DNA of 64,000 bases, from the NCBI GenBank assembly GCA_023667845.1, contig JAMPIU010000143.1:250574-314573 (forward strand), given 5' to 3'. A program made the translations under genes and the position numbers. Shown one piece after another: positions 30,531 to 43,618 of this stretch (position 1 is its first letter; the number at the start of each line of letters is the position of its first letter). The DNA is from Dehalobacter sp. GTDB lineage: Bacteria; Bacillota; Desulfitobacteriia; Desulfitobacteriales; Syntrophobotulaceae. A model generated the notes under the pieces. The model saw only the letters and a list, made by a program, of their open reading frames with translations. It was not told the DNA's origin and ran no database searches.

Positions 30531-31532
30531 ATGGCAATAACAGTTAATTCTGCTTTTTCGGAATTTATGAGAGATATAGTAAACCTCGACCCAAACGTGA
30601 CTACCAATGCTAGACAAAGTCGGGACAATCTGCTTTCAAATATAGCAGAGTTTGATAACATTGATGGCTTTTTTGATTTATGCGAATCATTTAATATCCA
30701 TTTTGGGTCATTTGCCAGACATACAAAATGTAGAGAACTTAACGATATTGATCTCATGGTTGGTATTGCAGCCAATGGAGCTACTTACAATTCTTATGAT
30801 AATTGGGATAATGTTAGAATTACAGCTAGTACTACTAATCAGGCGCAAAAAGATTGTACAAGAGATGATAAAACATTAAACAGCACGCAAGTTGTTAACA
30901 AATTCAAGAAACAACTTGAAAATGTTCGAGAATATTCAAGATCAGAAGTTAAACGAAGCGGTGAAGCTATAGTTCTAAATCTAAGATCCAAAGATTGGTC
31001 GTTTGATATTATACCATGTTTTCATACAGTTACTGAGAGTGACGGACGCGCATATTACTTAATTCCAAATAGTAAGGGAAATTGGAAAAAAACTGATCCT
31101 ACTATTGATAAGGAAAAAGTCACAAGCACAAATCAAAATAAAGATGAACGAGTATTAGAACTCATACGACTGTTTAAGAAGTGGAACAAGGTAAAAAATG
31201 CCACAACATTGCCTTCATATCTATTAGAAACGCTTTTAATAGATTATTGTCAAACAGTTTCAAGTCTCTCAGAATATATTGATCTGCGCTTCAGAGATGC
31301 CTTGCCTTATGTATCTCAGCATATTTACAATCCTATTTATGATATGAAGAATATTCAGGGAGATATCAATGCCCTTTCATATGCAGATAGAGTAGTAATA
31401 AGTAATAAAGCGCTTACAGATTATGATAAGGCATGCAAAGCTTCATATGCAGAATTAACAGAAAAGGATCAAAAAAAGGCTATAAATCTTTGGGGAGAAG
31501 TGTTTGGGAGTGATTTTCCGGCCTATGGATAA
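30531..31532 (+). CDS. CD-NTase (cyclic oligonucleotide synthase, CBASS-type)
   Basis: A 333-residue nucleotidyltransferase of the OAS/cGAS-like class. The active site is intact: G59-S60 in HFGSFARHTK, D72-x-D74 in LNDIDLMV, and a third acidic residue D159 in WSFDIIPCF. A helical C-terminal domain follows. GGGAGGG precedes ATG 30531. Such enzymes make cyclic di- or trinucleotides on phage infection. The adjoining gene encodes a membrane effector overlapping its stop, so the pair forms a minimal CBASS-like module. I cannot assign the clade or the nucleotide product. Confidence 0.8.
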   Translation: MAITVNSAFSEFMRDIVNLDPNVTTNARQSRDNLLSNIAEFDNIDGFFDLCESFNIHFGSFARHTKCRELNDIDLMVGIAANGATYNSYDNWDNVRITASTTNQAQKDCTRDDKTLNSTQVVNKFKKQLENVREYSRSEVKRSGEAIVLNLRSKDWSFDIIPCFHTVTESDGRAYYLIPNSKGNWKKTDPTIDKEKVTSTNQNKDERVLELIRLFKKWNKVKNATTLPSYLLETLLIDYCQTVSSLSEYIDLRFRDALPYVSQHIYNPIYDMKNIQGDINALSYADRVVISNKALTDYDKACKASYAELTEKDQKKAINLWGEVFGSDFPAYG

Positions 31533-32394
31533 AAAATTTATTTATAAACAACAGAATAAACGAGATATGCTATTGCTACTTATGGCACAGCAAGAATTTT
31601 ACAACAAGGCAAAAAAAATATTGTATATAGGTATAATACTAAGTACTATCGGAACTGCAGCGTTTGCGGTTCTCACAACTAAATGTTCTTCAGATACAGT
31701 AAATGCTTTATCTATTTTGTTTTCTATGATTTTGTTGGCAGTCAATTTTTGTTGTGGAATTATCTCGAATAATTTGAAAGAAATTGGTGCCAAAATCCAG
31801 CAGACTTTTGATGTTAAATTATATGGTATGCATATGAATTTTGGGATACTCAATAGAGATGATATTGCCAATGTAACAGCTGACTATGCTTCTCTAGATT
31901 TAAAAAAAGTTGAAAATTGGTATAGTGATTATTATAGCCTTTCAATCTCAGAACAGATATTTCACTGCCAGCAAGAGAATATCAGATGGGACGGCAAACT
32001 TCGTAAAAATTATTTATGGTTTAATATTGCGGCTTGCATGATATTGTCAGTTGCAATTTTACTAATTGCTATTCTGGCGAAATCAAGCTTATTCCAGTTC
32101 TTTGCAATGTTGGCATGGGCTATCCCTATATGGCAGTTTTTCTTAAATCAGTGCAAAGATATTTATTGTGATTTAGGTACGTTAAAAGAGCTGAAAAATG
32201 AGTATGAATTGATTCTAAACAATAAAGTAAATTATTCTGATTCAGAATTATATGCCCAACTCGAAACTCTACAATCTTTTATTTTTGATCATCGAAAGAA
32301 AGCTGTGCTCATTCCCAACTGGTTCTATCGCTGTTTTCAAAGAAAATTTCAAACACACGAAGATGCTATAGCGTTACAACACAAGAAGAAATAA
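31525..32394 (+). CDS. Four-TM effector (S-4TM-like) of the CBASS-like pair
   Basis: A 289-residue protein starting at ATG 31525, overlapping the CD-NTase stop by 8 bases. It has two N-terminal membrane helices (about 32-51 and 60-80), a cytoplasmic segment of about 80 residues, two more helices (about 164-184 and 188-207) and a charged C-terminus. The 2+2 helix layout and the position behind a nucleotidyltransferase fit the S-4TM class of putative pore-forming effectors. It is expected to damage the membrane when bound by the nucleotide signal. No toxin motif beyond the helices is visible. Confidence 0.7.
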   Translation: MDKKFIYKQQNKRDMLLLLMAQQEFYNKAKKILYIGIILSTIGTAAFAVLTTKCSSDTVNALSILFSMILLAVNFCCGIISNNLKEIGAKIQQTFDVKLYGMHMNFGILNRDDIANVTADYASLDLKKVENWYSDYYSLSISEQIFHCQQENIRWDGKLRKNYLWFNIAACMILSVAILLIAILAKSSLFQFFAMLAWAIPIWQFFLNQCKDIYCDLGTLKELKNEYELILNNKVNYSDSELYAQLETLQSFIFDHRKKAVLIPNWFYRCFQRKFQTHEDAIALQHKKK

Positions 32395-32455: not shown

Positions 32456-32886
32456 TTGGAGACTATCGAAGCCGAAGATATTATCTCAATTAAGAAAGCA
32501 GTCCAAAACCAGTCCGAATTGGTCATGGAAGCAAAATTTAATTATGACATAGAAGATAAAACCGCGAGCATTCTTGAAGATGAAAGAATAGTAAAATTTC
32601 GCAAGCTAAACCGGAAAATCGGAGAGAACTTAAAACTGCTCTATGGTTACAGGTGCCAAATCTGTGGGCAGTATGTCGGCGCAGAATATGGTGCAAAAGT
32701 TGCCGAAGCGCATCACATTGATTATTTTGTCCAGAGCCTTAACAATGACGCGAATAACCAGCTCATCGTTTGCCCTAATCATCACAGTATTATTCATAGA
32801 CCAATCCGGTATTTAACCGAAAGAAGCTAATTTATTTGTACCCTAACGGAGTCCAGAAAGGCCTGATGCTTAATCACCATTTGTAG
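32456..32886 (+). pseudogene. HNH endonuclease with a frameshift near the 3' end
   Basis: The frame from TTG 32456 reads FRKLNRKIGENLKLLYGYRCQICGQYVG, then AEAHHIDYF, NNDANNQLIVCPNHHSIIHR, an intact HNH/ββα-metal core with CxxC. After about 32805 it runs out into a short unrelated tail. Another frame continues the family ending NPVFNRKKLIYLYPNGVQKG to TAG 32884-32886. One missing base explains this. No ribosome site is seen at the start, so the 5' end may also be lost. The catalytic core could still be made as a 124-residue protein. Confidence 0.7.
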
Positions 32887-33039
32887 GAGGAAAAATTATC
32901 CGACGAAAAAAGTTGGCTTATCTCTAAATCAGTTTTGCACTTAAAAGGAGGTACGTCAACGATTGTCTACATTTCGCTTCTGCGATATACTAAAACAAAT
33001 ATTACAACAGGACTAACATACGAATTGGAGAGCACAAGC

Positions 33040-34509
33040 ATGATAACAGGCGAACCGAAAAACAAAGTAGACAAACTCTGGGAGATGTTTTGGACAGGGG
33101 GACTGACGAACCCGTTGGACGTCATTGAACAGATTACATACCTAATGTTTATCCGTGACCTCGATCAAACCGATAATACTCGTCAGAAAGAAGTCAGTAT
33201 GCTGGGTATTCCTTATACCAGCATGTTTGCCGGAAAAGAACATCTGAAATGGACTGTCCTGCGGGATAAGCCTGCAGAATCCATGTATCAGACAATGCAG
33301 GCCGAAGTGTTCCCGTTTATAAAGGAATTAAACGGAAATAGCGGGACTTACGCCAAATACATGGCCGATGCGATTTTCAAGGTGCCTACTCCGCAGTTGC
33401 TTGAGAAAATCGTAACAGCTCTTGATGAGATGTATGCTCTGATTGACAAGTTGCCGGATAAGCGGGATGCTCGGGGCGACCTGTATGAATACATGCTCTC
33501 CAAGCTCTCCACAGCGGGCACCAATGGTCAGTTCCGTACACCGCGGCATATTATCCGCATGATGGTGGAGCTTCTTGACCTGAAACCGATTGATATCATC
33601 TGCGACCCGGCCTGCGGTACAAGCGGCTTTTTGGTTGCAGCGGGCGAATATCTGAAAGAACATTATCTGAACGAAATTTTCTATAACAAAGAAGCCAAGA
33701 CCCATTACGATAGTACCATGTTCACCGGCTACGACATGGACCGCACCATGCTGCGCATCGGTGCCATGAACATGATGACCCACGGCATTTCCAATCCGCA
33801 GATCGTGTATAAGGACAGCCTTTCTGACCAGAACAACGATACTGGAATATATACAAAGATCCTGACTAATCCGCCCTTTAAGGGCAGCTTGGATTATGAT
33901 ATTGTATCTAACGACCTTATTAAAGTGACAAAAACAAAAAAGACTGAGCTTTTATTTCTGGCGCTGTTTCTCAGGATGCTTAGAAACGGCGGACGTTGCG
34001 CCTCCATCGTGCCGGACGGCGTGCTGTTTGGTTCATCTACGGCGCATAAGGCCATCCGTAAGGAAATCGTTGAAAACCACAGGCTGGAGGCGATTATCTC
34101 CATGCCCTCCGGTGTGTTCAAGCCCTATGCCGGAGTGAGCACTGCCGTCATCATCTTTACCAAGATGGGCGGCGGTACCGACAAGGTGTGGTTTTACGAT
34201 ATGCAGTCCGACGGCTACAGCCTGGATGACAAGCGTACGCCGATCGAGCAGAGCGATATCCTTGATATCGTGGCGCGTTTTCATGCGCTGGATCAAGAAG
34301 AAGGCAGAGCGCGCACCGAGCAGAGTTTCCTTGTGCCCAAGGACGAAATTGTAAGTAACGATTATGATCTTTCCATCAACAAATATAAGCAGAGCGCCTA
34401 TGTGGAGGAGGAGTACCTCCATCCTCTGGAGATCATGACGGAGATTAACGAGCTGGAAATGGAGATTACCGCTGGGCTTGCGGAGCTGGAGGAGATGCTC
34501 CATGGGTAG
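33040..34509 (+). CDS. hsdM: Type I restriction-modification methyltransferase subunit
   Basis: A 489-residue protein; ATG 33040 is preceded by TTGGAGAGCA, and the frame upstream lacks a ribosome site. The N-terminal HsdM helical domain is followed by the SAM-dependent adenine methylase core: motif I DPACGTSGF at 189-197 and catalytic NPPF at 277-280. It methylates adenine in the target set by HsdS. It overlaps hsdS by 8 bases (ATGGGTAG), a sign of tight coupling. GC content here is higher than in the flanking CBASS genes and hsdS. Confidence 0.95.
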   Translation: MITGEPKNKVDKLWEMFWTGGLTNPLDVIEQITYLMFIRDLDQTDNTRQKEVSMLGIPYTSMFAGKEHLKWTVLRDKPAESMYQTMQAEVFPFIKELNGNSGTYAKYMADAIFKVPTPQLLEKIVTALDEMYALIDKLPDKRDARGDLYEYMLSKLSTAGTNGQFRTPRHIIRMMVELLDLKPIDIICDPACGTSGFLVAAGEYLKEHYLNEIFYNKEAKTHYDSTMFTGYDMDRTMLRIGAMNMMTHGISNPQIVYKDSLSDQNNDTGIYTKILTNPPFKGSLDYDIVSNDLIKVTKTKKTELLFLALFLRMLRNGGRCASIVPDGVLFGSSTAHKAIRKEIVENHRLEAIISMPSGVFKPYAGVSTAVIIFTKMGGGTDKVWFYDMQSDGYSLDDKRTPIEQSDILDIVARFHALDQEEGRARTEQSFLVPKDEIVSNDYDLSINKYKQSAYVEEEYLHPLEIMTEINELEMEITAGLAELEEMLHG

Positions 34510-35689
34510 GTGGGATATATCTAAAGTTAGAAATTGTTTTTCATGTGTAATGCGCGGAAAATCCCCTACCTATGTGCCAGAATCTAGAATAAGAGTGATA
34601 AATCAAGCCTGTGTGTACTGGGATGGTATTAGGATAGATAATGTGAAGTATCAAAACGAGAATAATGCAGATAAAGTTGTTTTTCTGCAACCACAAGATG
34701 TGTTGATTAATTCAACAGGTACTGGTACTTTAGGAAGATGTAATGTCTTTAATATAGAAGATGCTTTTATTTATTCAATAGATAGCCATGTAACGCTGTT
34801 AAGACCTTATGATCATATCAATTCTTTGTTTGTTCGTTATTATTTTATGATGGACGAGACACAACGAGAATTATACAAAAAGTGTGTTAATGGCTCAACA
34901 AATCAAATCGAGTTATCAAAGAATCAATTGCTAGAGTTTCCTATCCCTGTGCCACCGCTGGATGTCCAACAAAAGATAGCTGATGTGCTGAACAAAGCCT
35001 CCGCGCTTATTGAACTGCGCAAGGCTCAACTGGACAAGCTGGATTTGCTCATAAAATCGCAATTTATCGAGATGTTCGGCGACCCGGCGACCAACCCGAA
35101 GGGGTGGGAGATTGGGGCGATTCGAGATCTGGTAAGGGATGTGAAGTATGGCACAAGTAAGCCCGCAGAAGCAGATGGGGTATACGTCTATTTACGGATG
35201 AACAATATCACCTATAGTGGTGGTATTGACTTAACCGATTTGAAATATATCAATGTTGATGAGAAGGAATATGAGAAATATGTTATTCGTAAAGGCGATT
35301 TGTTGTTTAACCGAACTAATAGTAAAGAATTAGTTGGTAAAACCGCGATTTTCAAAGAAAATACTCCTATGATTATTGCTGGGTATATTATTCGTGTTAG
35401 AACAAATGAAAAAGCTAATCCTGAGTATATCTCCGCATTTCTAAATTCGAGATATGGCAAAGAATTGCTTTATGATATGTGTAAAGCAATTGTTGGTCAG
35501 GCCAATATAAATGCACAGGAATTACAAAATATTAAAATCCCAATAACGCCTATTTCTCTGCAGAATGAATTTAAAGCTTTTGTAGAAAAAACCGAAGCGC
35601 AAAAATCTCTGCTCCAAAAATCCCTCAAAAAGATGAGACTCAACTACAAATCCCTAATGCAAAAGTGCTTTAGAGGGGAGGTTTTCTGA
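34502..35689 (+). CDS. hsdS: Type I restriction-modification specificity subunit
   Basis: A 395-residue protein; ATG 34502 has GGAGGAG upstream. It has two target-recognition domains (about 1-145 and 200-340) separated by the conserved helical spacer PVPPLDVQQKIADVLNKA and LRKAQLDKLDLLIKSQFIEMFGDP. A second spacer at the C-terminus ends in SLMQKCFRGEVF. Each recognition domain is AT-rich while the spacer is markedly GC-richer, so the recognition parts have probably been exchanged. It determines the bipartite DNA target; the sequence read cannot be predicted here. Confidence 0.95.
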   Translation: MGRWDISKVRNCFSCVMRGKSPTYVPESRIRVINQACVYWDGIRIDNVKYQNENNADKVVFLQPQDVLINSTGTGTLGRCNVFNIEDAFIYSIDSHVTLLRPYDHINSLFVRYYFMMDETQRELYKKCVNGSTNQIELSKNQLLEFPIPVPPLDVQQKIADVLNKASALIELRKAQLDKLDLLIKSQFIEMFGDPATNPKGWEIGAIRDLVRDVKYGTSKPAEADGVYVYLRMNNITYSGGIDLTDLKYINVDEKEYEKYVIRKGDLLFNRTNSKELVGKTAIFKENTPMIIAGYIIRVRTNEKANPEYISAFLNSRYGKELLYDMCKAIVGQANINAQELQNIKIPITPISLQNEFKAFVEKTEAQKSLLQKSLKKMRLNYKSLMQKCFRGEVF

Positions 35690-35691
35690 TT

Positions 35692-36252
35692 ATGATCAAT
35701 TGGTTAAACACAAATCAAGGATTTGTAATGTCCCTGCTAACATTAATATACGTTATTGCTACAGTGATCATTGTTTTATATAATCGTAAAACTATCAAAG
35801 AAATGAAGGAAAGCAGAGAGGCGGAGTCTCGGCCATATGTTTTTGTTTATTTAGATAAAGACCCCAGAGACTTATGCTTTTATTTACGTATTAGGAACTA
35901 TGGGAAAAGTGGTGCAAAGTTTGATAATGTCTCGATAACGCCAAATCTCAAATTGTGTGATGGGGCATTGCCAGAGAACTTCCTTAAAAATGTTATTTTA
36001 GCTCCATCTCAAACACTTGAGTTCATTGTATTAGAGAAAAAAGATGAAACTTTAAAAAATGATTACGCGGTCAGTATTCAGTATACATCTGTTGACGGAA
36101 GAGGAAAGCAATACAGTGAAAAATATATGCTGACATTACAATATGCTCATCAAATGGGGTATACGGACAACAAGCAGAGCAATCTTAGCGATGAAGCAAA
36201 TGCGTTGAGGAACATTTCATACCATCTGGATTCTATGCGACGCAAATTATAA
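35692..36252 (+). CDS. Membrane-anchored accessory protein inside the hsd operon
   Basis: A 186-residue protein starting 2 bases after hsdS and ending 14 bases before hsdR. One membrane helix lies at about 11-31 (VMSLLTLIYVIATVIIVLYN), followed by a basic stretch. A soluble beta-rich domain follows, with RPYVFVYLDKDPRDLCFYLRIRN and NYGKSGAKFDNVSITPN, and the C-terminus is helical. No nuclease or kinase motif is seen. Its place inside the operon with tight spacing suggests a role with the restriction system, perhaps tethering or regulation. This is inferred; the family is not recognised. Confidence 0.75.
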   Translation: MINWLNTNQGFVMSLLTLIYVIATVIIVLYNRKTIKEMKESREAESRPYVFVYLDKDPRDLCFYLRIRNYGKSGAKFDNVSITPNLKLCDGALPENFLKNVILAPSQTLEFIVLEKKDETLKNDYAVSIQYTSVDGRGKQYSEKYMLTLQYAHQMGYTDNKQSNLSDEANALRNISYHLDSMRRKL

Positions 36253-36266
36253 TGAGGTGACCCGCC

Positions 36267-39200
36267 ATGCGCACCAACTTTGATTTCCTATTAAATGATC
36301 CACAATTTAAACCCTTTGCCGAGGCAGCCGTCTCGGCGGAGCGGGTGCTGCCCATTTCGCCAGCATTGTGCGCTACCGCGTGCCGGACGGCCTTGGAATT
36401 TGCGGTCAAGTGGGTCTACAGTGTGGATGGGTCACTTCAAAAGCCCTATGAGGATAAGCTGGTTACCCTGATCAGCACCGAGGATTTCAAGGATTTAATT
36501 CCCCCAGGTATGCTTGCCAAGTTGGACTATCTGCGCAAAGTTGGCAATAACGCCACTCACAATGCCAAGAGCGTCAGCCGCGACCAGGCGGTACTTGCTT
36601 TGCAGAATTTGCACAGCTTTCTGGATTTCGTTGCCTACTGTTACGGAACAAAGTACACCGAGGTTACGTTTGACAAAGCCTTATTGGAAGCAAAACCGGA
36701 ACCGGCAGTCGTCACAGTAATGCCGCCAGATGCTGATGAGGTGGACTTCCAGACCCTGTTGGATGAGAACTTCCCCAAACGCGAAAAGCTCACTGCCAAG
36801 CGTGTGCAACAGCTCAAGCAGGGCTATACCGTCAAACCCATGGATATGACGGAAGCGCAGACCCGCAAGGCATATATCGATGTCATGCTTCAGGATACCG
36901 GCTGGCAGCGCGGCCCTAATTGGATTGACGAGTATCCCATCGATGAGATGCCAAATAAATCTGGCAAGGGTTCCGCCGACTATGTTCTTCTTGGAGATAA
37001 CGGCCTGCCGTTGGCAGTCATTGAGGCCAAGCGCACCAGTGTCAATGTGGAAAAGGGACGTCAGCAGGCTGTATTATATGCTGACTTTCTGGAAAAGAAA
37101 CACGGCCAGCGGCCGGTCATCTTTATGACCAATGGCTACGAAACCCGCATCTGGAGTGACAAATATTATCCTGAGCGTCCAGTCTCAGGTATCTATTCCA
37201 AGCGGGATTTGGAAAAAGAGTTTAATAAAATGAAAAGCCGTACTGCTCTAAGGGCGGTACGGATCAGTGATGAACTATCAAACCGTTACTATCAGAAAGA
37301 GGCCGTACAAGCAATCTGCGATGCATTTGACGAACGTAACCGCCGTAAAGCGCTGCTTGTCATGGCTACCGGTAGCGGTAAGACGAGGACAGTTATTTCC
37401 CTTGTAGATGTACTCATCCGCCATGGATGGGTGAAAAATCTGCTGTTTCTGGCCGACCGCAATGCATTGGTAACCCAGGCTAAACGTACCTTCCATAATC
37501 TTATGCCAAACCTTTCGCTGTGTAACCTCACCGAGGGAAAGGAGGAGGCCAGCGCACGTGCGGTGTTTTCCACCTATCAGACGATGATGAACTGTATCGA
37601 CGCTACCCGGGATGAGAACGATAACCGATTGTTTACGCCGGGGCATTTTGACCTGATTATCGTCGATGAGGCCCATCGCAGTATCTATAACAAATACAAG
37701 GATATCTTTACTTATTTTGATGCGCTGCTGGTAGGGTTGACGGCCACGCCAAAGGATGAAATAGACAAAAACACCTATGGGATTTTTGATTTAGAAAGCG
37801 GCGTGCCTACTTATGGCTATGAACTTTCCCAGGCGGTACAGGATGGTTATCTGGTAGACTTTGTCTCCATCGAAACCGAGCTGAAATTTATGAGCGAAGG
37901 CATCACTTATGAGGATCTTTCGCCGGAAGAAAAGGAAGAGTATGAGAACACCTTTGCCGATGAAGAAGGCAATCTGCCTGCCACCATCGATTCCAGCGCC
38001 CTCAACGAGTGGATTTTTAACAGCGACACCATCAAAAAGGCGCTGCATATTCTGATGCAACATGGACAGCGGGTGGAGTTTGGCGAAAAAATTGGCAAGA
38101 CCATCATCTTTGCTAAGAATCATAATCATGCCGAAAAAATTCTGGAGGTGTGGAATCGGGAGTTCCCCGATTATCCCAACCATTACGTGCGGGTGATCGA
38201 TAACTATACTAATTACGCCCAGAGCATTATTGACGACTTTTCGGATAAAAACAAAATGCCGCAAATATCTATCTCTGTGGACATGCTGGATACCGGTATC
38301 GATGTACCGGAAATTCTCAACCTTGTCTTTTTTAAAAAGGTCATGAGCCGGGCTAAGTTCTGGCAAATGATCGGACGTGGTACCCGTACATGCGCAGGGC
38401 TTATCGACAGTGGGGACAAACGCCTGTTTTATATTTTTGACCTGTGCAGAAACTTTGAATTTTTCCGTCTGCATGTCAAAGGGCGCGAGGCAGGGACGGT
38501 CAGCACGCTCCAGGAGCGTATGTTCAATATAAAGCTCGAGCTGGTGTACAAGCTGCAAGAACTCCCTTACCAGACAGATGCGCTTAAAGCATACCGTAAA
38601 GAGCTTGTGCAGGATCTGGCGGCGCAGGTGAAGGCCTTGCCGCGGGACAACTTTGCCGTAAAACAACACCTGCGCATTATTGATAAATACCAGTCCGAGG
38701 ATGATTTTGATACCCTGACTTATGAAAACACCCTGCAGATTGCCGAGCATATTGCTCCGCTTGTACTGCCTACAGCCGACGATATTGCGGCGGCGCGGTT
38801 TGACATGCTCATCTATCAGATTGAGCTGGCTATGTTGTCTGAAAAAAGCTGCAAACGGGCAAAAAACGATGTGGTTCACAAAGCGGCGGAACTATCAAAA
38901 TACGGTACGATTCCGGCCATTGCCCAGCAGCAGGAGCTAATTGAGCAAATCATACATAACGATTATTTGGATCGCGCGGGTATTTCGGACTATGAGGATA
39001 TCAGGCTGAAGCTGCGGGATTTGATAAAGTTCATACCGGAAAGGGTCCGGGTACGTTATGATACCGACTTCACGGATGATGTTTTATCCATGGAATGGAA
39101 AGAATCCCAATTGGACAACGATGATTTGGCAAACTACAAGAAAAAGGTCAACTACTATATCCTTCAGCATCAGGATATTCCGGCTATTGCCAAGCTCAAG

Positions 39201-39590
39201 AGCAACCAGCCGTTGACTTCGGATGATGTACAGGTGCTCGAATGCATCCTGTGGAACGAGTTGGGTACAAAAGAACAGTATGACGCCCAGTATGGAAAAG
39301 CCCCACTTGGCGAGTTGGTGCGATCCATTGTGGGGCTTAGCCAGAAAGCCGCCAACGAAGCCTTTTCCGGCTTCCTAAATGAAGCTGGGTTGGACAGTAG
39401 ACAGATGTATTTTGTACGGCAGGTTGTTAATTACATCGTGAAAAACGGCATGATGAAAGACCTGTCGGTGCTGCAGGAAAGCCCATTCACAGATATGGGA
39501 AGTATCAGCGAATTGTTTGATGATGTGGCGGTGTTCATCAACCTGCGGACTGTTATTGAAAGCATCAACAAAAATGCACAGGCGGCGTGA
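36267..39590 (+). CDS. hsdR: Type I restriction endonuclease/translocase subunit
   Basis: A 1107-residue protein with GAGGTG before ATG 36267. Domains in order: a DUF4145-like N-terminal domain (about 8-110), then the HSDR_N nuclease with PD-ExK residues near D238 (ADYVLL) and ExK about 253-255 (VIEAKR). Helicase motifs follow: Walker A MATGSGKT about 366 and DEAH about 466 in IIVDEAHRS. Further motifs are LLVGLTATPKD, MLDTGIDVPEI and QMIGRGTRT. It ends with an EcoEI-type C-terminal domain. It cuts unmodified DNA after ATP-driven translocation. No inactivating mutation is visible. Confidence 0.95.
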   Translation: MRTNFDFLLNDPQFKPFAEAAVSAERVLPISPALCATACRTALEFAVKWVYSVDGSLQKPYEDKLVTLISTEDFKDLIPPGMLAKLDYLRKVGNNATHNAKSVSRDQAVLALQNLHSFLDFVAYCYGTKYTEVTFDKALLEAKPEPAVVTVMPPDADEVDFQTLLDENFPKREKLTAKRVQQLKQGYTVKPMDMTEAQTRKAYIDVMLQDTGWQRGPNWIDEYPIDEMPNKSGKGSADYVLLGDNGLPLAVIEAKRTSVNVEKGRQQAVLYADFLEKKHGQRPVIFMTNGYETRIWSDKYYPERPVSGIYSKRDLEKEFNKMKSRTALRAVRISDELSNRYYQKEAVQAICDAFDERNRRKALLVMATGSGKTRTVISLVDVLIRHGWVKNLLFLADRNALVTQAKRTFHNLMPNLSLCNLTEGKEEASARAVFSTYQTMMNCIDATRDENDNRLFTPGHFDLIIVDEAHRSIYNKYKDIFTYFDALLVGLTATPKDEIDKNTYGIFDLESGVPTYGYELSQAVQDGYLVDFVSIETELKFMSEGITYEDLSPEEKEEYENTFADEEGNLPATIDSSALNEWIFNSDTIKKALHILMQHGQRVEFGEKIGKTIIFAKNHNHAEKILEVWNREFPDYPNHYVRVIDNYTNYAQSIIDDFSDKNKMPQISISVDMLDTGIDVPEILNLVFFKKVMSRAKFWQMIGRGTRTCAGLIDSGDKRLFYIFDLCRNFEFFRLHVKGREAGTVSTLQERMFNIKLELVYKLQELPYQTDALKAYRKELVQDLAAQVKALPRDNFAVKQHLRIIDKYQSEDDFDTLTYENTLQIAEHIAPLVLPTADDIAAARFDMLIYQIELAMLSEKSCKRAKNDVVHKAAELSKYGTIPAIAQQQELIEQIIHNDYLDRAGISDYEDIRLKLRDLIKFIPERVRVRYDTDFTDDVLSMEWKESQLDNDDLANYKKKVNYYILQHQDIPAIAKLKSNQPLTSDDVQVLECILWNELGTKEQYDAQYGKAPLGELVRSIVGLSQKAANEAFSGFLNEAGLDSRQMYFVRQVVNYIVKNGMMKDLSVLQESPFTDMGSISELFDDVAVFINLRTVIESINKNAQAA

Positions 39591-40833: not shown

Positions 40834-41118
40834 CTACATTAAATCAGGCTCATCCACTCCAAGAAGATCGCAAAGAGCATTGTTAACCATTATCCTAAAA
40901 TCATCATCAGATATGTTGTTAGCTTGAGCATATTCGAAGACATCATCGACAGTGCTGACGAATTTTTGCGCTAAACGAGCATTCTCCCTTTTCATCTTCG
41001 GAAAATGCTCAATAACATAGCCTGAATAATCCATTTCGAAGAGATATCTTGATATCTTTCCGTCAGCAAAATCAGAGATAAAATCTATCATAAACGCCGT
41101 ATGTTTTCCAACCTTCAT
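40834..41118 (-). CDS. IS66 passenger gene, coupled to tnpC
   Basis: A 94-residue protein whose ATG at 41118 shares its A with the TGA stop of tnpC (TGATG), so it is translated by reinitiation. The product is acidic and helical (MKVGKHTAFMIDFISDFADG, FPKMKRENARLAQKFVSTVDD, DDFRIMVNNALCDLLGVDEPDL). It lies inside the inverted repeats and is not needed for the standard IS66 mechanism. It has no motif I recognise. Confidence 0.75.
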   Translation of the reverse strand: MKVGKHTAFMIDFISDFADGKISRYLFEMDYSGYVIEHFPKMKRENARLAQKFVSTVDDVFEYAQANNISDDDFRIMVNNALCDLLGVDEPDLM

Positions 41119-42719
41119 CAGTCTTCCTCCCACGCATATTTTTCCGGACTTCCGTTACCGGGCTGCGGGGTGAATACTTTCTCCGGCAAGGCTGCACTAC
41201 CAGGTAAAAAGTCTTTAATTTCAGATATGTAACCCGCTCTTCCTAAGTTAGGGGCATTTGTAAAAATCCATGTTAAATATTCAAATGGATTCAAGCCATT
41301 TTCTCTCGCACTCACAATTAGGCTGTAATAAATCGCACTGGCCCTGGCGCCGTTTGGTGTGTTAGTAAAGATCCAGTTCTTTCGACCGATTACAAAAGGT
41401 TTAATACTACGTTCCGCACGGTTGTTTGAAATTTCAAGACGTCCGTCCAGCAGGTATCTCTTAAGATATTTTTGTTGGGACTTGGCATAATGTACCGCCT
41501 TACCAAGAAGTGTGTTAGGCAAAGCAGCAAGCCCATTGATCCAATTGTAAAAGTCATCAAATACAGGCTTTGACAAGCGTTTGCGCTCTTGAAGGCGTTT
41601 ATACGGGGTAAGGGAAGCAAACTGTTTTTCAAGGTGGAACAGCTTGTCACAATAGGTAACCCCTTTTGCCGCACTGGATTCCGGTTGTTTCTCCTTGGGC
41701 AGGGTTTTAAAGGCATCGAAAAACTTCCGCCTAAGATGTGCCAGGCAGCCCACAACGATTATGTTTTCAGGAAGCTTATGATAACCTTCGTATCCATCTG
41801 TATGAAGGTAACCTGTAAAATCTTTTAAGAATTTTCCAGGATGGGTATGTTTTCTGTCAACTTGATAGTCATAAATTACAATCTGGTGTTTTGTATCTCC
41901 GCTGGTGCGGTACAGCCACATGTAACTCTTTGACTGCGCCGTCTTTCCCGGTTCTTTCAACACCTGCAGCGTGGTTTCATCTGCGTGGAGCACTTCATGC
42001 TCACATAATCTAAGCTTCATCTCTTCATATATCGGTTCCAGCCAGTCCTCACTGGCTTTGATCATCCAGTTTGACATCGTCTGCCGGGAAAGCAGGATGC
42101 CGTTTTGTTTCCACTCCTGCTCCTGTCGGTATAGTGGGGATGCCATCATGAATTTCTGTACCGCTATATGGGCAATTGTCTCGGGGGAAGCAAATCCGCC
42201 TTTGATGACAGGTTCCGGCATATCTGCTTTTATGATAGGAACATGCTCGGCAGTTCCTTCACAATTACGGCAGGCGTAAATATGCCGTACGTGCCGTACA
42301 ATGATTGCTTTGGCAGGAATGACTTTGAGTTCTTCGCGAGTTTCCCTGCCCATTGTATGTAACTGACTGCTGCAATTCGGACAAATACACTCTTCTGCCG
42401 GAAGCTCGTGTTCAATTACCTCAACAGGTAAATCCTTCGGCAATTTGTCAGTTGTAAGGCGTGTCCGTTTACGATAATGCGCTTTTACCTCGGCAAGCTT
42501 CGGTTCCGGCTTGCTTATATCGGCGCTTGATTCGGCCTCGTTGAATATGAGCATCTGAATACCGTCTGTCTTTTCACTTGATGCGCCAAATTGTTTATGC
42601 TTAGCAAGGCGGATCTGTGACATAAACCACTGTACTTGTTGCTCTAATTCAGCAATTTTGCGGTCCTTTTCTTCAATTATTCCAAGCAGTTGTTCTGCTG
42701 AAGTTTCTTGCGTTTTCAT
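41118..42719 (-). CDS. tnpC: IS66 transposase, TnpC-type (DDE)
   Basis: A 533-residue transposase; ATG 42719 is the start. The N-terminal leucine-rich helix (KDRKIAELEQQVQWFMSQIR) and the zinc-finger ECICPNCSSQLH precede the DDE domain. Motifs include HADETTLQVLKEPG (first D), GYLHTDGYEGYHKL (second D) and LEISNNRAERSIKPFVIGRKNW (catalytic E region). A C-terminal IS66_C segment is present. It appears intact. The upstream TATAAT at about 42730 is close to the start, suggesting a separate weak promoter. Confidence 0.95.
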   Translation of the reverse strand: MKTQETSAEQLLGIIEEKDRKIAELEQQVQWFMSQIRLAKHKQFGASSEKTDGIQMLIFNEAESSADISKPEPKLAEVKAHYRKRTRLTTDKLPKDLPVEVIEHELPAEECICPNCSSQLHTMGRETREELKVIPAKAIIVRHVRHIYACRNCEGTAEHVPIIKADMPEPVIKGGFASPETIAHIAVQKFMMASPLYRQEQEWKQNGILLSRQTMSNWMIKASEDWLEPIYEEMKLRLCEHEVLHADETTLQVLKEPGKTAQSKSYMWLYRTSGDTKHQIVIYDYQVDRKHTHPGKFLKDFTGYLHTDGYEGYHKLPENIIVVGCLAHLRRKFFDAFKTLPKEKQPESSAAKGVTYCDKLFHLEKQFASLTPYKRLQERKRLSKPVFDDFYNWINGLAALPNTLLGKAVHYAKSQQKYLKRYLLDGRLEISNNRAERSIKPFVIGRKNWIFTNTPNGARASAIYYSLIVSARENGLNPFEYLTWIFTNAPNLGRAGYISEIKDFLPGSAALPEKVFTPQPGNGSPEKYAWEED

Positions 42720-42794
42720 AAGAAAATTATACCATAAAAACCGCAAAAAAGCTAGATTTCATGCGGTTCTAAACGCTGTTTCGAGATAAATATT

Positions 42795-43145
42795 TCAAGA
42801 GATTTGCCGCTCGAAAACTTCTTCTCGTTTCAGCTTTTTCTCCAGTTTCGCACCTTCAATAAGATAAGATAATTCTTTGGTTTCAAGAACCATGGTGGCA
42901 GTGTCTCCCTTTGCCGGCCAGCGAAAATGTCCGCGCTCCAGACGTTTGAAATACAACCAGAATCCGTCGCCGTCCCATTCCAGGATTTTTATTCTGTTCC
43001 GATGCCGGTTGCAGAATACAAACAATGCTTCTGAAAACGGATCGATGGAAAAGTTGTCTTTAACCAGCGCCATGAGTCCGTTGATTGATTTCCTCATATC
43101 GGTATGCCCGCAGCATAGGTACACGGGTTTGTCACTCCATCTCAT
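42795..43145 (-). CDS. tnpB: IS66 accessory protein TnpB
   Basis: A 116-residue protein with the IS66 Orf2 signature: VYLCCGHTDMRKSINGLMALV, FVFCNRHRNRIKILEWDGDGFWLYFKRLERG and FRWP. ATG 43145 overlaps the stop of tnpA by one base, so the two are translationally coupled. It is required with tnpA for efficient IS66 transposition. Confidence 0.95.
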   Translation of the reverse strand: MRWSDKPVYLCCGHTDMRKSINGLMALVKDNFSIDPFSEALFVFCNRHRNRIKILEWDGDGFWLYFKRLERGHFRWPAKGDTATMVLETKELSYLIEGAKLEKKLKREEVFERQIS

Positions 43146-43498
43146 TACAGCACCCTCAATATGCGGCAGACTTTTTTCAGAAGTTCAGGATCCGTCTCCG
43201 CATACACGGTGACGTGACAGCCACCGACTTCAATATCCAGCGTTGATTTTATTTCTTGACCTTGGGAAAGTTGCATCCACCCTTCCGGGACACAGCTTAC
43301 GATGGTTTCTTCTTTCCGTTTTGAAAGTTCCATACATGCAACCTTTCGTAACTGTCGCTGCCAATAAAAGTATGCATGCTTACTTATTCCTTTCTCCTGG
43401 CAGAAATCCTTAATGCTCTGTCCGCTGCATTGCCGGTCCTGTATCACCTGCATCCACTGTGATAGTCGGTACTCTGTTGTGACTTTTTGTATATTCAT
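43145..43498 (-). CDS. tnpA: IS66 accessory protein TnpA
   Basis: A 117-residue protein starting at ATG 43498 after GCGGAGTGG; the in-frame start at 43555 lacks a ribosome site. It has the helix-turn-helix DFCQEKGISKHAYFYWQRQLR of the IS66 Orf1 (transposase_8-like) family and a C-terminal strand IEVGGCHVTVYAETDPELLKKV. It probably binds the element ends. Confidence 0.9.
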   Translation of the reverse strand: MNIQKVTTEYRLSQWMQVIQDRQCSGQSIKDFCQEKGISKHAYFYWQRQLRKVACMELSKRKEETIVSCVPEGWMQLSQGQEIKSTLDIEVGGCHVTVYAETDPELLKKVCRILRVL

Positions 43499-43618
43499 AC
43501 AACCACTCCGCTTTGGTTGAAAAAGTGTGCAAACTTTTTCAACTTTTTCAACCATATTTATTGTGATTGTACTATCTTCAAGGCTACAATTCTATGTGAT
43601 GGTGTCTTTGACGCTTAC

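Follow-up and report, generated by a model that had tools for sequence, protein, structure and literature searches.

The gene between hsdS and hsdR in a type I restriction–modification operon of Dehalobacter sp. (positions 35692–36252, + strand, of a 64,000-nucleotide stretch of contig JAMPIU010000143.1, the whole of which is here called the window) encodes a 186-residue single-pass membrane protein by prediction, here termed X, that matches the prophage family phrog_9607. It is best explained as an acquired accessory cargo gene, probably for an independent membrane-level anti-phage protein (probability about 0.6). That X is independent cargo and not a part of the restriction enzyme appears very probable; that it would act in the manner of superinfection exclusion has about an even chance, judged by analogy, its anti-phage role being argued from position. 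Embedded cargo in type I loci is itself already known, and X is a new instance of it, from a family without assigned function. X thereby links a prophage gene family of unlabelled function to a bacterial defence locus, so that a likely role for the family becomes testable in a plaque assay.

The operon and the predicted protein

The gene order is hsdM–hsdS–X–hsdR, all on the plus strand and in the same operon, with the three hsd reading frames open: hsdM at 32935–34509 (Pfam N6_Mtase, E = 6.5e-63, and HsdM_N), hsdS at 34478–35689 from a listed TTG start at 34478 (Pfam Methylase_S, E = 5e-23), and hsdR at 36267–39590 (Pfam ResIII and EcoEI_R_C, with an N-terminal DUF4145). X starts with ATG 2 bp from the end of hsdS (35689) and stops 14 bp before the start of hsdR (36267). 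A ribosome-binding-like sequence (gaggggagg) lies just 5′ of X within the 3′ end of hsdS, and the hsdR leader (36253–36266, + strand) carries a ribosome-binding-like site of its own. The GC content is 35.1% in X and 37.7% in hsdS, against 48.1% in hsdM and 48.4% in hsdR. The sequence-only reading had described a membrane-anchored product, tightly packed between hsdS and hsdR and sharing the low GC content of hsdS; the open frame with its one hydrophobic segment, the Pfam assignments of its flanks, the two short gaps and the composition bear this out. No terminator-like site was found on the plus strand between hsdS and hsdR, and we infer that X is co-transcribed with the hsd genes, a point that the promoter scan does not settle (28 promoter-like sites where 15.4 would be expected, including one that overlaps the X start and another within the gene).

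Several other elements surround the operon. Just upstream of hsdM (30531–32394) lies a CBASS pair of low GC content (34% and 32%), made up of a SMODS-type cyclase (PADLOC Cyclase, E = 6.4e-128) and an S_4TM effector (Pfam, E = 6.5e-48); it was set aside as a partner of X, CBASS having its own 4TM effector. A 124-residue open reading frame (ORF) at 32456–32830 gives weak HNH matches and partial similarity to a phosphorothioate-DNA restriction enzyme (E = 2.4e-7) and to ZorE (E = 1.6e-4), all below the cut-off where one exists, and three ORFs downstream of hsdR (41118–43555) resemble, by reading, an IS66-type transposon set.

X is supported as a real protein by five invariant columns (P48, N69, G71, P105 and Y131) in a 17-row family alignment, and none of 2000 composition-matched shuffles was open across 186 codons. 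Its membrane association is predicted both by hydropathy, which gives a single, N-terminal hydrophobic segment at residues 11–29 (35722–35778, + strand), and by AlphaFold2; one such segment is present in each of the 17 aligned rows. The AlphaFold2 model, built from nine sequences (mean pLDDT 75.8, pTM 0.61) and usable for outline, not detail, places residues 4–46 in one long helix, followed by strands at residues 50–148 and a C-terminal helix. Together with the conserved columns, these strands mark out a predicted β-sandwich region at residues about 48–148 (35833–36135, + strand), which carries the family motifs PY, N-G-A and AP-Q. The positive-inside rule suggests an N-out, C-in orientation with a cytoplasmic C-terminal domain: in all 17 rows, lysine and arginine are more numerous in the 25 residues that follow the helix than in the shorter N-terminus. 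The prediction is soft, as the compared stretches are of unequal length and, in several rows, acidic residues are as numerous as basic ones beyond the helix.

X gave no PADLOC match and nothing above cut-off in Pfam or NCBIfam, its two sub-cut-off Pfam matches having E values of 0.037 and 0.21. A fold search returned no confident solved relative (best PDB match E = 3.4e-3, with low TM-scores). Weak matches to Kir channel, MSP and EAR domains were rejected as fold relatives, fitting the general sandwich fold only, and the two BFVD matches below 1e-3 are both uncharacterised viral proteins.

The phrog_9607 family and its surroundings

In a PHROGs v4 profile search, X matches phrog_9607 (E = 4.9e-22; X residues 9–174 to positions 8–169 of 179), a family labelled there as of unknown function, and by this match it is a divergent member. 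It resembles the family in length, in its N-terminal membrane helix and in the conserved P, N-G and P-Y positions; it differs in its low identity to aligned relatives (just 12–26%) and in lying in an hsd operon instead of a prophage. A tblastn search of X against phage records (E up to 1) gave 17 records (12 Streptococcus, 3 Gordonia, 1 Flavonifractor and 1 further), of which 11 reached E = 1e-4 or better, with weaker matches in the three Gordonia and three of the Streptococcus records. The surroundings of the family gene were read in 6 of these 17. In all four annotated streptococcal prophages read (4 of the 17 records), it sits in the lysogeny region, co-directional with the repressor and with a terminal recombinase-like gene (variously annotated as integrase, mobile element protein, phage integrase domain or DNA invertase) and opposite to the replication genes; in the Flavonifractor phage Cormatin, the gene is close to the record's end, in opposite orientation to the replication genes. 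The sixth record read carries no annotation. Beyond these, IMG/VR viral contigs and two Enterococcus megaplasmids have members, and some stand alone in chromosomes. The E. raffinosus megaplasmid member is 100% identical to a protein on a viral contig and is therefore probably inside a prophage on the plasmid.

The family is sparse among bacterial genomes. X has a match in 4 of 61 kin genomes, its own included. Across 398 genomes of the phylum, matches were found in six with X as a single protein (one of them anchor-only), in four with phrog_9607 and in nine with the 17-row profile, the genome of X being included each time; four of the nine are strong (E = 1.6e-50 or better) and five are weak (7e-8 to 4e-4), one of the weak ones (G221) being a partial match to a multi-domain protein. 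Single-protein scans of genome contigs and viral contigs found no relative of X, probably because short exact patterns cannot follow so divergent a family; the PHROGs and phage tblastn searches did find relatives. Of 14 named control genomes, phrog_9607 matched one, Escherichia coli. A literature search, with most subscription papers and all bioRxiv preprints outside it, found no paper on the term phrog_9607 and no phrog_9607 protein reported in an hsd operon, and we know of no phage assay for any member of the family.

Members of the family stand apart from restriction genes. When 31 stretches around relatives and lookalikes were searched with hsdM, hsdS and hsdR profiles (E = 1e-4), hsd genes were found in L014 only, a stretch fetched for an anchor-only match and not for a family member; the independent cases number fewer than 31, several stretches being near-identical copies. 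The profiles found no hsd genes around the other X-family members in the stretches read, and the family thus does not need the restriction enzyme as a partner. The sequence-only reading had named homologues scattered with no hsd association as the finding that would speak against it, and for the family this is what was observed. The family phrog_9607 was found in none of 17 genomes with examined hsd loci (16 from set A, described below, and G369).

The first 46 residues of X, used alone as a query, matched 4 of 319 genomes beside its own (E ≤ 0.01). The match in G251 (stretch L014) is to another kind of membrane protein, encoded in the hsdS–hsdR gap of a second type I system. Two more appear to be membrane proteins unrelated to X, and the last (L196), a helix with a β-rich part, has no shown relation to X. 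A shared anchor family is not claimed. The L014 operon (L014:469–8013) itself has three embedded genes, one upstream of hsdS for a nucleotidyltransferase-binding protein and two in the hsdS–hsdR gap, for a membrane protein and a nucleotidyltransferase.

The hsdS–hsdR gap as a variable cargo slot

Two sets of loci were compared with the window: set A, the best 80 of 333 loci with related HsdR and as such not a random sample, and set B, 28 more distant stretches picked by HsdR score, of which 21 were readable. Recognition of hsdS and hsdR relied on profiles built from the loci themselves, and a gap was called filled above 250 bp, a line that we set (17 values reach up to 242 and the next is 300). 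Fifteen of the 80 set A loci were unreadable (14 without an upstream hsdS in the stretch, one without a called hsdR). Among the 65 that could be read, 48 were filled and 17 empty; in set B, 11 of 21 were filled and 10 empty, three of the filled ones lacking any ORF of 80 residues. One set B locus (L152) and one set A locus (L041) are apparently the same, having contigs of equal length and the same insert. The gap is a variable cargo slot: the 48 filled set A gaps hold 80 cargo ORFs of at least 80 residues, which fall into 67 clusters at E = 1e-3 (the largest of six), and 29 of the 48 hold a single such ORF. These ORFs were called mechanically, and some may not be genes. That the site may be a recombination hotspot for defence systems has been put forward as a suggestion (PMC12255303); the survey puts numbers on this idea, about three quarters of the readable loci among the closest HsdR relatives being filled.

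By the simple hydropathy rule also applied to X, an N-terminal hydrophobic segment occurs in a cargo ORF in 9 of the 48 filled set A slots, and the earlier statement that transmembrane proteins are rare in type I systems is thus too strong for this type of locus. For family assignment, 79 cargo ORFs (one of the 80, in L088, was dropped as an hsdR fragment) were scanned together with X, members being counted per family. Among the best 25 of 26 Pfam families were AbiH and AbiU2 (two each), SieB, PycTM, TIR, SIR2, Mrr, OLD-type TOPRIM and Schlafen (one each), as well as FRG and AAA ATPases. The best 25 of 197 PADLOC names included PtuA, GajA, AriA, Old and candidate families, the four named ones probably representing just two or three ATPase ORFs between them; for PHROGs, the best 25 of 47 families were taken. 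The slot of L033 holds a Pycsar pair (L033:2407–3748; PycTM, E = 1e-29, and PycC, E = 1.2e-89, in PADLOC), and that of L053 a lone SieB ORF (E = 7.2e-20, above the Pfam cut-off). The cargo of L026 is, by reading, not defence-like, and much slot cargo has no assigned function.

X itself is confined to the window in this comparison. The family profile, run on ORFs of at least 50 residues, found no member in the other 108 hsd stretches (80 of set A and 28 of set B), so that the same insertion, which the sequence-only reading had proposed looking for in other hsd operons, is absent from them; the related loci have the same place empty or occupied by other genes. A subunit of a type I enzyme would be present in all or most systems of its type, and X is in none of these 108. 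Where HsdR is 78–85% identical, five of six readable slots are empty (L020, L023, L024, L032 and L151), while the sixth, L021, holds other ORFs; L022 could not be read. In L151, with an HsdR 83% identical, the junctions set side by side show an hsdS ending in the same TTC-stop as in the window and an hsdR leader that is nearly the same, one base shorter; with both sides matching, X is placed after the hsdS stop and ahead of the hsdR leader. We infer that it arrived there by insertion or exchange, loss in L151 being a conceivable alternative from the junction sequences.

Candidate roles

Embedded cargo in type I loci is, from the accessible parts of several reports, a known kind. DarTG2 lies between hsdS and hsdR (PMC12255303), RloF between hsdR and hsdS, and TgvAB within a type I cluster, where it still protects when the nuclease of HsdR is mutated; on its own, TgvAB gave weaker protection than the complete operon did, so such cargo may gain from its operon (PMC11411939). 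As far as these sources go, DarTG2, TgvAB, RloF and PrrC share with X the position of accessory genes inside a type I hsd operon; they are toxins, nucleases or restriction proteins, whereas X is a small membrane protein from a different family. A second likeness is to superinfection-exclusion proteins: in the text available, small membrane-associated Sie proteins are encoded in lysogeny modules (PMC7693887), as is ltp (PMC3952083), and X resembles Sie2009, Ltp and SieB in being a small membrane-associated product. Genes of the Sie2009 type and ltp thus have, on these accounts, the same kind of place as the X relatives in prophage lysogeny regions, and a SieB protein fills in L053 the slot that X fills here. 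Unlike Ltp, which by the accessible text works outside the membrane (PMC3952083), X has its domain on the inside by the soft prediction given above. Between characterised Sie proteins and X no sequence relation was found, the direct comparison covering SieB: Pfam SieB is absent from the matches of X at E up to 1.

Two interpretations had been offered by the sequence-only reading, a membrane tether that positions the restriction complex and a separate defence component, and it is the second that fits better. A tether would make sense of the membrane helix and the operon position, and the predicted C-in topology would put the X domain on the enzyme's side. However, the examined sister systems do without X, both across the other 108 hsd stretches and in five of the six readable closest relatives, and members of the family stand without hsd, so the tether is a poor fit and very unlikely. 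EcoKI subunits are reportedly at the membrane, a location on which a literature search gave nothing of use. As a separate defence component, X would be in keeping with a slot that holds several known defence proteins and with relatives in prophage lysogeny regions, its anti-phage activity being putative.

A further candidate is an enzyme-gated guard, in which HsdR and HsdS would keep X inactive; a phage anti-restriction protein that blocks the enzyme would set X free, and X would then damage the membrane. There is a precedent in PrrC, whose gene lies inside a type IC locus and whose product the enzyme sequesters, according to the accessible text of two reports (PMC3874165, PMC12707154), and the tight packing of X in the operon would suit such control; yet the other family members have no hsd gene in the stretches read, and the model of X, with one helix, a β-sandwich and a C-terminal helix, offers no recognisable enzyme or pore domain. 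A guard of this kind is possible by analogy, not needed, and on the whole unlikely. Somewhat less improbable, although still doubtful, is that X is a passenger without an anti-phage role, for instance a prophage lysogenic-conversion gene left behind by recombination: just one hsd-embedded family member was found, namely X, its GC content is low and the family is labelled as of unknown function. Against this reading, the frame is intact, the family motifs and a ribosome-binding-like site are kept, the gene is cleanly placed between the hsdS stop and the hsdR leader, and the slot holds several known defence genes.

On the favoured explanation, independent anti-phage cargo, X would have been acquired into the variable hsdS–hsdR slot and be co-transcribed with the hsd operon; its product would sit in the cytoplasmic membrane with an Ig-like domain in the cytoplasm and act alone against incoming phage at the membrane, as prophage superinfection-exclusion proteins do, complementing restriction. 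An exclusion-type role is the likeliest because relatives of X occur in the lysogeny regions of prophages, where known Sie genes are also encoded, and because SieB occurs as cargo in the same slot. A bolder version, put forward only tentatively and improbable as it stands, would have the slot serve as a loading dock for single prophage immunity genes, with phrog_9607 a membrane superinfection-exclusion family deployed by phages against one another, here put under restriction-operon control, so that a block to entry would be followed by restriction, possibly with the state of the enzyme gating X. Neighbours in hsd operons should in any case not be read as restriction-enzyme parts by default.

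Many cargo ORFs of the slot have no known function and are worth screening. Two cargo proteins, of L099 and L095, are similar to X in outline, with no profile relation to it. The commonest cargo is the cluster of six ORFs, of 410–431 residues, a candidate defence protein whose L025 and L065 members, scanned singly, gave no Pfam match at E = 1e-3; its members are at L025:3793–5088, L065:4752–6017, L068:4689–5984, L069:4738–5970, L071:3348–4637 and L095:3637–4875.
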